Assembly (NCBI RefSeq): GCF_016756535.1
Contig: NZ_AP023247.1
Span: forward strand, 806,001-870,000
DNA from: Mesorhizobium sp. 131-2-1
GTDB taxonomy: Bacteria > Pseudomonadota > Alphaproteobacteria > Rhizobiales > Rhizobiaceae
Direction of reading: 5' to 3'
DNA: 64,000 bases
Positions 9,364-51,940 of this stretch are shown here, piece after piece. The notes below the pieces were generated by a model. It was not told where the DNA came from, did no database searches, and saw only the letters and a list, made by a program, of their open reading frames with translations. A program made the position numbers and the translations under genes. Positions within the stretch are counted from its first letter, which is position 1. Every line of letters starts with the position of its first letter.

Positions 9364-9532
9364 GACGCCTCCGGAGATCGCGAGTCAGCTTACTTTAGAG
9401 TGTGAATCTCGGCCTGCAATGGCACACATACCGAGATGTCGGCGGAACAGCGCCCTCTCGTGGGCAGGACGATCGCAAATGGCGCTTCGTCATTCTAGGG
9501 CGGAGCAAGGAGCGAAGCGACGCGCGCAGACC

Positions 9533-10302
9533 CTAGGGCGTGGACTCAACGTGTCGCAGCCATATTCGGAGCGATGCGAGATTGAGGATGGCCAGGTAGT
9601 TGCGTGCGAGCTTGTCAAAGCGGGTTGCGGCCCGGCGGAATTGCTTGAGCCTGCAGAAGAAGCGTTCGATGCGGTTGCGCTCCCGGTAGAGCTCTGGCGG
9701 AACCACACGTTTATTCTTGACGTGACGGCGGGTTGGAATGTTGGCCGAGCCACCGGTTCTGGCAATGAGAGCAACCAACGGCCAGCTGTCGTAGCCTTTG
9801 TCAGCGACAAGCGCCTTTGCCGGCGGCAACCCTTCAATCAGCTGCGGGGCGATGGTCTTATCGGATGCCTTGCCCTCGGTGATAAGCAAACGGATGGGCA
9901 GACCATCCTGATCGACAAGGGCATGAACCTTGGTGCTTAGTCCGCCATGAGAACGGCCAATGGCGTTATCCGGACCCCCTTTTTACCGCCCGCGGCATGC
10001 TGGTGAGCGCGGATTATCGAACTGTCGATTAAGTGCAAAGACTGTGGTGACTTAGCCGCCAGGGCTTCAAACATCGCCAACCAGACACCTCTCTTGGCCC
10101 AGCGGTTGAAGCGATTGTAGACCGTGGTGTAGGGGCCATACCGTTCGGGCAGATCGCGCCAAGGCGATCCGGTCCTCAAAACGTAAAATATGCCATTTAC
10201 CACCCGCCGATCATCGACCCGCTTCTTGCCCAAACCGTGCGGCGGCAGAAGCGGCTCCACGATTTGCCATTCCGTCTCGCTTAGATCGTAGCGTGCCATC
10301 AT
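9533..10302 (-). CDS. IS5-family transposase, two overlapping frames joined by a -1 frameshift (copy 1)
   Basis: The first frame (10302 to 9937) starts MMARYDLSETEWQIVEPLLP and holds the N-terminal DUF4096-like HTH region and the first DDE aspartate (HLIDSSIIRAH). The second frame (to 9533) continues GPDNAIGRSHGGLSTK and carries the second Asp (VADKGYDS) and the catalytic Glu (RNRIERFF). The frames join at a slippery A AAG GGG heptamer, as in other IS5-family elements. The stop TAG lies within the CTAG at the insertion border. Both domains look intact, so the enzyme may be active. Confidence 0.85.
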
Positions 10303-10364
10303 CGCCTCCAAATCAAGGCGTTGAATCACTGCTTCAAACGTCGTGCAAGGGTTGAGTACGCGCT
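9537..10364 (-). mobile_element. IS5-family insertion sequence (IS427-like), copy 1
   Basis: This 828-bp element is flanked on both sides by CTAG (9533-9536 and 10365-10368), a target duplication of TA or CTAG. Imperfect terminal repeats GGGCGTGGACTCAAC and GAGCGCGTACTCAAC match at 12 of 15 positions. It is an inverted copy of the element at 13756-14583; length and encoded proteins are identical. It interrupts the left arm of the GIY-YIG repeat element. Confidence 0.88.
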
Positions 10365-10445
10365 CTAGAATCCATGCCGTGACCTTGGCCAAGAACGCAA
10401 CGGTCCAGAATAGCCGCCGATGACTGCGCCAGCTAAGATCGCCAG

Positions 10446-10730
10446 ATGACCGGCTACGTCTACATGGCCGCAAGCCAGAAAGGCGGCACAATCTATATCG
10501 GTGTCACCAATGACCTTGCTCGTCGGATGCCCGAGCACAAGACCGGCCAAGGCTCCAGCTTCACCAGCCGTTATGGTGTGCAGCGTCTGGTCTGGTACGA
10601 GGAATACTTCGACATCACCGATGCTATCCAGCGTGAGACATCACTGAAGCGCTGGCCACGCCGATGGAAGGTCGAGCTGATCGAGAAGACCAATCCGGAA
10701 TGGTTCGAGCTATTTCGCGGAATTGGCTAG
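10446..10730 (+). CDS. GIY-YIG nuclease family protein
   Basis: This 94-residue single-domain endonuclease has the signature halves YVY at residues 4-6 and YIG at 17-19, the conserved Arg in NDLARR (26-27) and the metal-binding Glu in IQRETSLKRW (E64). It resembles the small stand-alone GIY-YIG proteins that are abundant in Rhizobiales and usually described only as UvrC-like. No DNA-binding domain is attached. The gene lies between two inverted 65-bp arms of repeat family A, which suggests it belongs to a mobile repeat. The ATG follows GATCGCCAG, with no strong RBS. Confidence 0.88.
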   Translation: MTGYVYMAASQKGGTIYIGVTNDLARRMPEHKTGQGSSFTSRYGVQRLVWYEEYFDITDAIQRETSLKRWPRRWKVELIEKTNPEWFELFRGIG

Positions 10731-10886
10731 TGAACGTTCTGCACCGCTGCGATGCTCGTGCGTCGCGGCATGGATTCTAGGATCTGCGCGCGTCGCTTCG
10801 CTCCTTGCTCCGCCCTAGAATGACGAATGATACGCCCACATGATTGAGGGGAGCGCGAAGGATCACGACGATTGCGCCCAAGACCC

Positions 10887-13501: not shown

Positions 13502-13755
13502 GTCAGGCGCTCCATGGGTGAAAACCTAGCGTCTTTTCCAGCCGATCGCAGTCGGAAAGAAGATAGATCGTGCCAATCGGAGGACCAGACGGGGAATGGA
13601 ATTCCAGACCCTGCCGTCGTCATCCTCAGGCTTGACCCGAGGATCCATGCCGTGCCCGAGGCCGGGGAATGCAGCGTTCCAGTACCATCACCGTCCGACC
13701 GGCCAAAGTCTTTCTGCACCGCTGCGGCGTTCGCAGGTCACGGCATGGATCCTAG

Positions 13756-14583
13756 AGCGCGTACTCAACCCTTGCACGACGTTTGAAGCAGTGATTCAAC
13801 GCCTTGATTTGGAGGCGATGATGGCACGCTACGATCTAAGCGAGACGGAATGGCAAATCGTGGAGCCGCTTCTGCCGCCGCACGGTTTGGGCAAGAAGCG
13901 GGTCGATGATCGGCGGGTGGTAAATGGCATATTTTACGTTTTGAGGACCGGATCGCCTTGGCGCGATCTGCCCGAACGGTATGGCCCCTACACCACGGTC
14001 TACAATCGCTTCAACCGCTGGGCCAAGAGAGGTGTCTGGTTGGCGATGTTTGAAGCCCTGGCGGCTAAGTCACCACAGTCTTTGCACTTAATCGACAGTT
14101 CGATAATCCGCGCTCACCAGCATGCCGCGGGCGGTAAAAAGGGGGTCCGGATAACGCCATTGGCCGTTCTCATGGCGGACTAAGCACCAAGGTTCATGCC
14201 CTTGTCGATCAGGATGGTCTGCCCATCCGTTTGCTTATCACCGAGGGCAAGGCATCCGATAAGACCATCGCCCCGCAGCTGATTGAAGGGTTGCCGCCGG
14301 CAAAGGCGCTTGTCGCTGACAAAGGCTACGACAGCTGGCCGTTAGTTGCTCTCATTGCCAGAACCGGTGGCTCGGCCAACATTCCAACCCGCCGTCACGT
14401 CAAGAATAAACGTGTGGTTCCGCCAGAGCTCTACCGGGAGCGCAACCGCATCGAACGCTTCTTCTGCAGGCTCAAGCAATTCCGCCGGGCCGCAACCCGC
14501 TTTGACAAGCTCGCACGCAACTACCTGGCCATCCTCAATCTCGCATCGCTCCGAATATGGCTGCGACACGTTGAGTCCACGCC
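13756..14583 (+). mobile_element. IS5-family insertion sequence (IS427-like), copy 2
   Basis: This 828-bp element lies in the opposite orientation to copy 1, flanked by CTAG at 13752-13755 and 14584-14587. It encodes the same transposase. Together with copy 1 it encloses the GIY-YIG gene and the cbs/mccB operon. Confidence 0.88.
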
Positions 14584-14587
14584 CTAG
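13818..14587 (+). CDS. IS5-family transposase, two frames joined by a -1 frameshift (copy 2)
   Basis: Frame one runs 13818-14183, starting at ATG after GGAG at 13811. Frame two is open to the TAG at 14585-14587. The heptamer A AAG GGG at 14138-14144 sits in the correct phase for a -1 slip, after which the peptide reads GGPDNAIGRSHGGLSTK, as in continuous IS5-type transposases. DDE residues lie in HLIDSSI, VADKGYDS and RNRIERFF. The encoded protein is the same as copy 1. The stop codon falls in the duplicated CTAG target rather than inside the element. Confidence 0.87.
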
Positions 14588-14656
14588 GGTCTGCGCTGCG
14601 TCGCTTCGCTCCTGCTTTGCCCTAGGATGACGAAGGGAGGGGCCCAAAAGCCCTGC

Positions 14657-16928: not shown

Positions 16929-17136
16929 TCGTCATTCCAGGGCGAAGGCAGGAGCGAAGCGACGTCGCGGAGACCCTGGAATCCATGCCGTGACTTCCGC
17001 CGACGAATGCATTGGCGCAGAATGAAGGCCATCGCTTCCCAAAAGAGGGTTCTGCACCGTAGGCTACGCTCTGATGTCACGGCATGGATCCCAGGGTCTG
17101 CGCTCCGCTTCGCGTCGCTCCGCCCAGGGATGACGA
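16929..17136. repeat. Repeat family A, short form with two long arms
   Basis: The left arm TCGTCATTCCAGGGCG to ATCCATGCCGTGAC (16929-16993) faces a right arm from GTCACGGCATGGATCCC to GGATGACGA (17076-17136). The spacer again contains TTCTGCACCG. The rest of the 870-bp gap between the Rrf2 gene and tauA shows only the small ORF and the palindrome. Confidence 0.8.
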
Positions 17137-32238: not shown

Positions 32239-32396
32239 TCGTCATCCTAGGGCGGAGCAAGGAGCGAAGCGACGCGGCGCAGACCCTGGGATCCATGCCG
32301 TTTCATCAAAGCGTTGCAGCGTTCCAGAATTCTGCACCGTTGCATCCACGGCAAAGGTCACGGCATGGATCCTCGGGTCAAGCCCGAGGATGACGA
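32239..32396. repeat. Repeat family A, short form (long left arm, short right arm)
   Basis: The left arm TCGTCATCCTAGGGCGG to GGGATCCATGCCG is followed by spacer AGCGTTCCAGAATTCTGCACCG. The right arm GGTCACGGCATGGATCC carries the short hairpin CCTCGGGTCAAGCCCGAGG. It lies between the secB terminator and dnaQ. Confidence 0.8.
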
Positions 32397-47677: not shown

Positions 47678-48788
47678 CAACTGTGTTCATGCGAAGGCCG
47701 TTTTGTCTCGAATGATGGCATTGAGAGTGACTAGGAGCTTCCTTGCGACAGCGACGATGGCAAGTTTCTTCGATCCGGAGCGCGCGGCGAGCGCAGTGTA
47801 GAAAGTTCTGAAGCGATCGTTGGCGCGGATGGCGCCCAGCGCCGCCATGTAGAGGGCGCGGCGCACGCGCGGGCGGCCACCGCTGATCTTGCTCTTGCGC
47901 TTGGCCTTGCCGCTCTCGTTGTCGAGCGGGGCAAGGCCTGCAAGTGCCGCGATCGACTTGGGCGAGCGCCGGCCGAGCTCGGGCATGTGGGCCAGCAGCG
48001 AAAGCGCGGTGATGGTGGAGACGCCTGGTACAGAGACCATCAGCGTGTAGTCGAGAGCGGTGTCCTCGGCTTCGCGAATGGCTTTGGCAATCCGGCTTTC
48101 GAGTGCATCGATGCGTGTGTCGAAGTCGGCGATCAGACTTTCAGTCTCGGTTATGACGTCCTCATCGAAGGCCTCGCTGAGATATCTCTTCAACCTTGCC
48201 CGGATCTCAACAAGATGGTCGCGGTGGCGGGCAAGCGACTGAAGGCGTTCGCCTTTCTCGCAAGGTGCCGCCTCGGCCGCAGGCTGGTAGCGACGACCGT
48301 AGCTGCTCAGCATCCGGGCATCGAGACGATCGGTCTTGGCGCGCTGGGTCGCCGACTTCGCGTAGTGGTGGGTGTGCGCCGGATTGTGCCGCGAGAACGC
48401 AATGCCGGCCTTGCCCAGCGCATGGCGCAGCAGCCGGTCATGGACCCCGGTCGCCTCCATGACAACGAAGTCACGACCAGCGCAAAGGCCTGCCACATAG
48501 GCTTCTATCGCTTCAGCCTGGTTGGCGATCCGCTGGTAGCGGCCGCTTGCCTCATCAAAGAAGTCGAGCCTCGCTTTGGAGATGTCGCAGCCGACATAGT
48601 TCTGCACTATCATGGCCATGCCTCTTCCTGTGGTGCGGGGTCTGCTGAAGACAGCCCCGTGCAACTGTTCAGGTTGATGGTTCATTGGTGGGAAGGGACC
48701 GAGCCATGCCGCGGCCTGTCCTCGAAGGGACGACCAGGATCCTCTCGGCCTCCTTCCCACTTCAACCATAGCACTGAGCAAACACACA
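47678..48788 (-). mobile_element. IS110-family insertion sequence with bridge RNA leader
   Basis: The element is 1,111 bp between GG dinucleotides on the plus strand (47676-47677 and 48789-48790; CC in the element's own sense). That is the core shared by target and donor. It has no inverted terminal repeats, a long 5' non-coding end of about 170 bp and only about 9 bp after the transposase. This is the layout of the IS110 group rather than IS1111. Confidence 0.88.
47687..48619 (-). CDS. IS110-family transposase (DEDD recombinase)
   Basis: The 310-residue protein has an N-terminal RuvC-like DEDD domain (D in GCDISKARLDF, E in VMEATGV, KTDRLDARML with the last two acidic residues). The C-terminal transposase_20 domain has the serine-containing VPGVSTITALSLLAHMPELG and SGKAKRKSKISGGRPRVRRALYMAALGA. 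The start is ATG 48619 after AGGAAGAGG; ATG 48613 also fits. It works with the bridge RNA encoded just upstream. It appears intact. Confidence 0.9.
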   Translation of the reverse strand: MAMIVQNYVGCDISKARLDFFDEASGRYQRIANQAEAIEAYVAGLCAGRDFVVMEATGVHDRLLRHALGKAGIAFSRHNPAHTHHYAKSATQRAKTDRLDARMLSSYGRRYQPAAEAAPCEKGERLQSLARHRDHLVEIRARLKRYLSEAFDEDVITETESLIADFDTRIDALESRIAKAIREAEDTALDYTLMVSVPGVSTITALSLLAHMPELGRRSPKSIAALAGLAPLDNESGKAKRKSKISGGRPRVRRALYMAALGAIRANDRFRTFYTALAARSGSKKLAIVAVARKLLVTLNAIIRDKTAFA

Positions 48789-48790
48789 GG
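48625..48790 (-). ncRNA. Predicted bridge RNA of the IS110 element
   Basis: Read on the minus strand, a stem GTGGGAAGG/CCTTCCCAC (48752-48760 with 48688-48696) plus CCGAG/CTCGG closes a target loop. Its 5' side carries GAGGATCC (48737-48744) and its 3' side CGGCATGG (48704-48711), around a small GTCC-GGAC hairpin. These match the left target GAGGATCC and the complement of CCATGCCG on the right. A second loop has ACAGTTGC (48661-48668), matching the element's right end, and CACAGG (48627-48632), pairing with its left end, around a GGGG/CCCC hairpin. The donor guide overlaps the transposase ribosome binding site. Confidence 0.85.
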
Positions 48791-48818
48791 ATCCTCGGGT
48801 CAAGCCCGAGGATGACGA

Positions 48819-51783: not shown

Positions 51784-51940
51784 TCGTCATCCTCGGGCTT
51801 GACCCGAGGATCCATGCCGTGACCACCGCCGTGGAATGCAACCGATCAGATTCTGCACCGTCGCGACGCCTAACCGTAATGGCATGGATTCTAGGGTCTG
51901 CGCGCGTCGCTCCGCTCCTTGCTCCGCCCTAGAATGACGA
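51784..51940. repeat. Repeat family A, intact short form (short left, long right arm)
   Basis: The left arm TCGTCATCCTCGGGCTTGAC to GAGGATCCATGCCGTGAC contains the IS110 target undisturbed (about 51806-51819). The spacer has AATGCAACCGATCAGATTCTGCACCG. The right arm GGCATGGATTCTAGGGTCTG to CCTAGAATGACGA has the IS5 target CTAG undisturbed. It is therefore an empty-site reference for both insertions. Confidence 0.85.

Follow-up and report, generated by a model that had tools for sequence, protein, structure and literature searches.

We have found that a small gene encoding a GIY-YIG nuclease is associated with CGTC repetitive extragenic palindromes (REPs) in bacteria of several phyla, and we regard this association as almost certain. 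In the window (the whole 64,000-nucleotide stretch of DNA analysed here, from the 7.1 Mb genome of Mesorhizobium sp. 131-2-1), the gene lies between two inverted REPs, and we interpret the unit as a gene-bearing ('autonomous') member of the CGTC REP superfamily. Its GIY-YIG protein would be the REP-associated enzyme that mobilizes the superfamily, as RAYT does for the GTAG REPs; mobilization is what we infer, and we put the probability of this reading at roughly 60%. The features of the window that bear on it are as follows.

9487..9536, + strand: outer part of the left arm, a CGTC-tagged hairpin with an expanded loop, head outward, CGTC at 9488
9537..10364, - strand: IS5-family insertion sequence within the left arm, CTAG at both junctions (9533-9536 and 10365-10368), two transposase ORF pieces
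10369..10411, + strand: inner part of the left half, comprising the hairpin end, the CCA tail and ATGCCGTGAC..., with CAGAAT last, at the dyad centre
10446..10730, + strand: GIY-YIG nuclease gene, 94 aa (PF01541, E 1.2e-16)
10737..10770, - strand: inner part of the right half, TTCTGCACCG first, at the dyad centre
10771..10825, - strand: right arm, a CGTC REP with an expanded loop, head outward
13618..14633, no strand: short copy, left REP at 13618-13647, centre at ~13712, right arm split by the window's insertion sequence, remainder of that arm at 14584-14633
16930..17135, no strand: short copy, both arms with expanded loops, longer centre
32240..32395, no strand: short copy, expanded-loop REP and CTTGA-loop REP, dyad centre CAGAATTCTG without insert
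48788..48817, - strand: single CGTC REP, tail CCT (one off consensus)
51785..51939, no strand: short copy, CTTGA-loop REP and expanded-loop REP

The inverted arms that a preliminary description had placed around the GIY-YIG gene are confirmed, as is the 94-aa open reading frame at 10446-10730 with its PF01541 match (E 1.2e-16). The arm match of 63 of 65 positions given there holds once 9487-9536 is joined to the sequence from 10369 onward, with the insertion sequence (IS) skipped, but not for a contiguous arm, since 9487-9536 agrees with the right arm at 49 of 50 positions; a repeat search gave 51 nt at 98% for the window arms. As the left arm is split by an IS5-family insertion of 828 bp, the real unit is 508 bp long, which is its length without the IS. 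A contiguous element of 1340 bp is ruled out because its interior is this insertion; two relatives (G023 and G036) have orthologous units that contain the gene and arms but lack the insertion. The second ORF of the IS, the only piece that scored, matches NF033580 (E 2.8e-28) at 99 bits, under the model cut-off of 110.

The GIY-YIG gene of the window unit occupies the dyad centre of a two-hairpin repeat. The four short copies listed earlier are real, with CGTC tags one base later than first given (13618, 16930, 32240 and 51785), and the suggestion that the gene sits where these copies join their two halves is borne out by the half-site distances of copies in the same genome. Of 34 further stretches taken from this genome, 24 have both half-site motifs (in the other 10 they were not both found), and in these 24 copies they lie 19-32 nt apart in 16, 57-69 nt apart in six and 354-357 nt apart in two, the last class being the two other GIY copies of the genome. 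A gene-free copy consists, in order, of a CGTC-tagged hairpin, the ATGCCGTGAC spacer, a CAGAA/TTCTG dyad, the inverted spacer and the inverted hairpin. Mesorhizobium arms contain hairpins of two kinds, with a CTTGA loop or with an expanded loop of ~30 nt, and a single element may pair one of each. The genome has three small GIY genes, one of which has an internal stop, and each is framed by these arms; a fourth PF01541 match belongs to a frame of 747 aa that we take for UvrC. Six gene-free copies (L046, L047, L048, L055, L057 and L073) have ~30 extra bases at the dyad centre and form a discrete size class, with no obvious sequence shared among the six extra centres. An outer motif near some copies, TTGGCCGA, was rejected, being present in 4 of 30 heads. 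In another alphaproteobacterial genome, an arm (L195, GTCATTGCGAGGAGCGAAGCGACG...GCAATCCAG) has an expanded loop much like those of the Mesorhizobium arms, so REPs of the expanded-loop kind may occur outside Mesorhizobium too.

CGTC REPs were defined in a 2013 survey (Di Nocera, De Gregorio and Rocco; PMC3733652, text available in part) by a CGTC (or TGTC/CCTC) tag outside the stem, an 8-9 bp stem beginning AT, a loop of 4-5 nt and a CCA tail. According to the same partial text, they predominate in alphaproteobacteria, have members in other phyla, may occur as inverted pairs and include dRS3 of Neisseria as well as RPE-4 and RPE-6 of Rickettsia conorii, and in one species, H. neapolitanus, they lie inside larger palindromes (PMC3733652). 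The survey left open what moves these repeats, stating that they 'apparently lack a dedicated transposase', and 'GIY-YIG' does not occur in the available part of it (PMC3733652). The window arms have the CGTC tag, a 9-bp stem beginning AT and the CCA tail. Their CTTGA-loop members (13618, 32366 and 51785) fit the loop of 4-5 nt, whereas the expanded-loop arms that flank the GIY gene, at ~30 nt, do not. The repeat is of a described kind, and it is the enzyme that was not known before. Within the open-access literature (subscription journals and preprints were outside the scope), we found neither a later answer on the mover of CGTC REPs nor a report joining GIY-YIG to REPs. No open-access paper with both 'GIY-YIG' and 'repetitive extragenic palindromic' was found; both words are present incidentally in the accessible text of PMC9465073. 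In the portions available, 'nuclease' and 'GIY' do not occur in RepRanger (PMC12306157), nor do 'palindrom' and 'flank' in a 2006 survey of the GIY-YIG superfamily (PMC1564403).

The unit is like the RAYT (TnpA-REP) genes with their GTAG REPs, and like REPINs, in having a single small gene between inverted REPs, with gene-free pairs elsewhere (PMC3733652, available part). However, RAYT is an HUH tyrosine (Y1) transposase and the enzyme here is a GIY-YIG nuclease, and the tag is CGTC instead of the GTAG of RAYT-associated REPs; because enzyme class and tag both differ, the unit works like a RAYT-REP system but is not a member of it. No RAYT-type (PF01797) gene was found in the window's genome, in a search whose control was positive in 5 of 14 genomes, and RAYT is thereby ruled out as the mover there.

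A Pfam scan of the window protein returned GIY-YIG (PF01541) and a weaker match to T5orf172 only. Five residues (Y17, R27, H31, E64 and N83) are invariant in 23 diverse homologues, with Y6 present in at least 90%, and we take Y6, Y17, R27 and E64 to be candidate catalytic residues; by domain, fold and these candidate residues the protein belongs to the GIY-YIG superfamily. The median dN/dS of 0.054 in 32 intact genus copies (the best matches of their genomes) indicates, from the sequences, that the protein is under strong purifying selection. With the predicted model (pLDDT 89.9), a fold search placed the UPF0213 protein BH0048 closest, as the sole match at E <= 0.001, followed by 1ywl, Slx1-Slx4 and UvrC, each at E >= 0.02. 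Its nearest neighbours in both sequence and fold are the UPF0213 or bacterial Slx1-like GIY-YIG proteins (1zg2 and 1ywl), which, like eukaryotic Slx1, have a stand-alone GIY-YIG domain of ~95 aa; no link of UPF0213/Slx1-like proteins to REPs was found in the literature covered, parts of which were available in incomplete text. GIY-YIG nucleases also serve selfish elements, as GIY-YIG homing endonucleases and in Penelope-like elements. Unlike these, the unit contains no intron, intein or reverse transcriptase, and its gene lies between REPs.

Within the genus, the nuclease was matched in 74 of 119 genomes (E <= 1e-3); one genome had as many as 10 matches, a number of which are fragments or contain stops. 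Arm matches of at least 60 nt lie on both sides at 28 of 30 genus loci, the window's own included, and the right arm is degraded in the other two. The nuclease was also found in 156 of 297 genomes of the order (E <= 1e-15) and in 111 of 398 genomes of the phylum (E <= 1e-12). Outside the genus, three samples were scored by a combined criterion, namely a strict CGTC REP within 250 bp or an inverted-repeat score of at least 36. The order sample held the 24 best-scoring loci outside the genus. The phylum sample held 59 loci, one per genome (54 from the phylum search and five from the order search), from the better-scoring matches, with lower ones and some near contig edges left out; one was dropped for the inverted-repeat test, leaving 58. 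The named sample held the best 80 of 580 confirmed stretches, less two at contig edges. Flanking repeats were found at 20 of 24 loci in the order sample, 51 of 58 in the phylum sample and 72 of 78 in the named sample (best 80 of 580). The preliminary description had asked whether such genes are always flanked by the arms: most homologues have flanking repeats, and far beyond Rhizobiales, but 17 of the 160 loci outside the genus have neither a REP nor an inverted repeat.

Chance flanking is ruled out by controls of density, of other ORFs and of cross-locus pairings. In the phylum sample, strict REPs occur at 2.23 per kb less than 300 bp from the gene (78 in 34,953 bases) and at 0.094 per kb beyond 1 kb (32 in 339,021 bases), a difference of ~24-fold, and the strict detector found none in reversed sequence against 123 in the real one. 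Strict REPs stand on both sides of 21 of 59 nuclease genes, compared with 1 of the 141 other ORFs at those loci, and on at least one side of 30 of 59 compared with 16 of 141; part of this enrichment may reflect intergenic context, since the ORFs used as controls belong to larger genes and often have little intergenic sequence around them. This effect bears less on the inverted-repeat test, where scores of at least 36 were reached by 39 of 58 nuclease genes, 2 of 142 neighbouring ORFs and 169 of 3306 cross-locus pairings (42 nuclease genes versus three other ORFs at a cut-off of 30, and 31 versus one at 45). At 21 phylum loci REPs stand on both sides of the gene, and at 11 of them the nearest two face inward. 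At the named loci (best 80 of 580), a strict REP lies within 250 bp in 68 of 78, on both sides in 44 and as an inward pair in 32, against 1 and 0 of 18 control ORFs, in a sample biased toward REP-associated genes because all five members of its query alignment (A3) themselves have a REP on at least one side. REP-flanked records in this sample (best 80 of 580) include Nitrospira, Planctomycetes, Chloroflexota, Omnitrophota, Elusimicrobia, Ignavibacteria and Sulfurovum; no REPs were found at its Myxococcota record. Eight plasmid loci came from a protein search, four with strict REPs and four with only variant hairpins or other repeats. On a plasmid of Planktothrix agardhii (L361), a homologue is flanked by an MmeI-type restriction gene and drmA (DISARM), amid GTCATTCTGAG repeats.

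The link extends to whole genomes, which were counted with one exact REP pattern per level and with nuclease queries and E-values that differ between levels, the REP-rich sets of 55 and 49 being tallied manually and recounted. In the order, the nuclease is present in 43 of 55 genomes with at least 10 REPs and in 113 of the other 242 (Fisher p 2e-5); in the phylum, the figures are 30 of 49 genomes with at least five REPs and 81 of the other 349 (Fisher p 2e-7). Six of the 12 REP-rich, gene-negative genomes of the order have no match at E <= 1e-3 (the other six have fragments or weak matches), as have 14 of the 19 in the phylum (the other five have weak matches), so that 20 REP-rich genomes have no detectable homologue, with one genome (G330) counted in both the list of 12 and the list of 19. 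Nuclease fragments (L229-L240) showed no strict REP within the ~1.5-kb flanks fetched. Repeats spread through genomes without the gene had been named beforehand as grounds for abandoning the idea. Such genomes do exist, yet REP-rich genomes carry the gene more often; the link between gene and REPs is thus strong but not strict. When REP loop type was mapped on a nuclease tree in which few branches are well supported, 15 changes were counted against a shuffled mean of 23.8, and none of 500 shuffles was as low; the tree covers 123 of 185 distinct proteins, 59 having been dropped for want of a strict REP nearby and three for another loop. Strict co-evolution of nuclease and loop type is ruled out, since there is clustering only, with frequent switches.

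Several observations bear on the limits of the unit and on its presence or absence at comparable sites. In 31 genus units, conservation starts and stops at the CGTC tags, within 1-2 bases, and the flanks are unrelated, and paralogous units of one genome (G101) have only blocks of 511-514 bp in common and sit at unrelated sites. Among the 31 units, arm distances rise with ORF distances (Mantel r 0.74 and 0.55), which fits a unit travelling as a whole, though host phylogeny contributes. On a plasmid of Azospirillum lipoferum 4B (L357), the gene lies between two complete REP dimers in the suf cluster, between sufB and sufC, where it may possibly affect suf gene expression; the same site is empty in A. 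ramasamyi, A. oryzae and strain B510. The position of the gene therefore varies, inside one dimer in Mesorhizobium and between two in Azospirillum. On Sphingobium plasmids, the unit lies between fnrL and a response-regulator gene and has variant hairpins, missed by the strict detector, whose stems begin AC, unlike those of the CGTC REP definition. The fnrL site contains a single hybrid hairpin in TomTYG64 and neither unit nor hybrid hairpin in TomTYG72. The hybrid looks like a deletion between short repeats common to both hairpins, though the change may have run the other way; this is the one site that directly suggests the origin by deletion first proposed for the short copies. One intergenic region holds a gene-bearing copy in G014 and a gene-free copy, perhaps a separate insertion, in five genomes (G000, G002, G003, G011 and G015), and the unit of G036 sits in the middle of another inverted repeat, giving nested palindromes. 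MITEs have terminal inverted repeats together with target-site duplications, and inverted repeats are present here. The search for empty sites and target duplications recommended in the preliminary description yielded occupied and empty sites but no duplication, none being resolved in three locus sets because the flanks of the available species-level relatives are too diverged; no dated transposition event was found.

How might such a unit move? REP hairpins would form in single-stranded or cruciform DNA, the nuclease, with its fold like that of the branch-cutting Slx1 nucleases, would recognize the hairpin and nick it at or near the CGTC tag, and host repair would copy the element into the break. 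GIY-YIG enzymes hydrolyse DNA and we know of none that rejoins it, so that host repair would be needed for this last step. Gene-free copies could spread with the enzyme acting in trans, or arise by internal deletion. As a tentative proposal, to which we would give somewhat less than even odds, a single GIY-YIG nuclease would spread the CGTC REP superfamily of bacteria unaided by any transposase, recombinase or reverse transcriptase in the unit, by nicking palindrome hairpins or cruciforms so that host repair copies the element in. Such nicking would explain elements nested in palindromes, as in G036 and, according to the partial text of PMC3733652, in H. neapolitanus.

The main rival to mobilization by the nuclease is that the gene is a homing-type parasite, a free-standing homing endonuclease that enters existing REP pairs, in Mesorhizobium at their dyad centre, with the REPs themselves spread by something else. 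GIY-YIG is also a homing-endonuclease fold, and the location of the gene at the exact centre of a two-REP element would be compatible with a homing endonuclease lying in its own recognition site. The intergenic region that is gene-bearing in G014 and gene-free in five genomes (perhaps through separate insertions) and the existence of REP-rich genomes without the gene point the same way. We nevertheless consider this explanation unlikely, because REP abundance goes with the presence of the gene, arm distances correlate with ORF distances (host phylogeny contributing), some sites in relatives have no element at all, and the Azospirillum gene lies between two complete dimers, not inside one.

The patchy and multi-copy distribution of the gene in the genus (74 of 119 genomes, up to 10 matches in one of them, fragments included), with copies at unrelated sites, is the behaviour of a mobile gene, and makes it improbable that the protein is a structure-specific housekeeping nuclease of the host, which trims or resolves REP hairpins and cruciforms and is kept near REPs for regulation or by selection without spreading them, even though its closest folds are UPF0213 and Slx1, a branched-DNA nuclease, and purifying selection on it is strong. 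We attach a similarly low probability to a passenger role, in which the nuclease gene would be cargo and the elements MITE-like remnants left by a transposon that used a different transposase. The lack of a strand-joining enzyme in the unit and the 20 REP-rich genomes without a nuclease homologue would suit such a passenger; against it, the same nuclease family recurs beside CGTC REPs in distant phyla, the window's genome has no RAYT-type gene, and the available part of the 2013 survey reports no associated transposase (PMC3733652). The GIY-YIG protein as the mobilizer of CGTC REPs remains the reading we prefer, since REPs are abundant more often where the gene is present, the CGTC tags bound the unit and the window's genome lacks a RAYT-type gene. 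The RAYT-like role first suggested for the gene is strongly supported as an association, well outside Rhizobiales, with a link that is not strict.

The association provides one candidate protein for the whole CGTC REP superfamily. If a lone nuclease does spread these REPs, elements could transpose with a nuclease alone, and REPs would be driven by a second class of enzyme. The association also suggests that many multi-copy genes annotated as 'GIY-YIG nuclease', 'putative endonuclease' or 'excinuclease ABC subunit C' belong to mobile repeats and are not repair genes.

Two other kinds of element were seen at or near these repeats. A second palindromic family, CTCTGGCCTGCCGGCC, mostly around ATCTCCCCC...GGGGGAGAT, is found at the same intergenic sites in relatives (L089, L091, L092 and L327-L330), as a palindrome within a palindrome. 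Several near-identical copies of the window's IS lie elsewhere in its genome, four or more of them occupying a CTAG in other copies of the arm, and each of the three GIY units, like other copies, has an IS5-family element at CTAG in its arms (window 9537-10364; L002, L003, L066 and L069), as if the arm repeat were a preferred target of this element.
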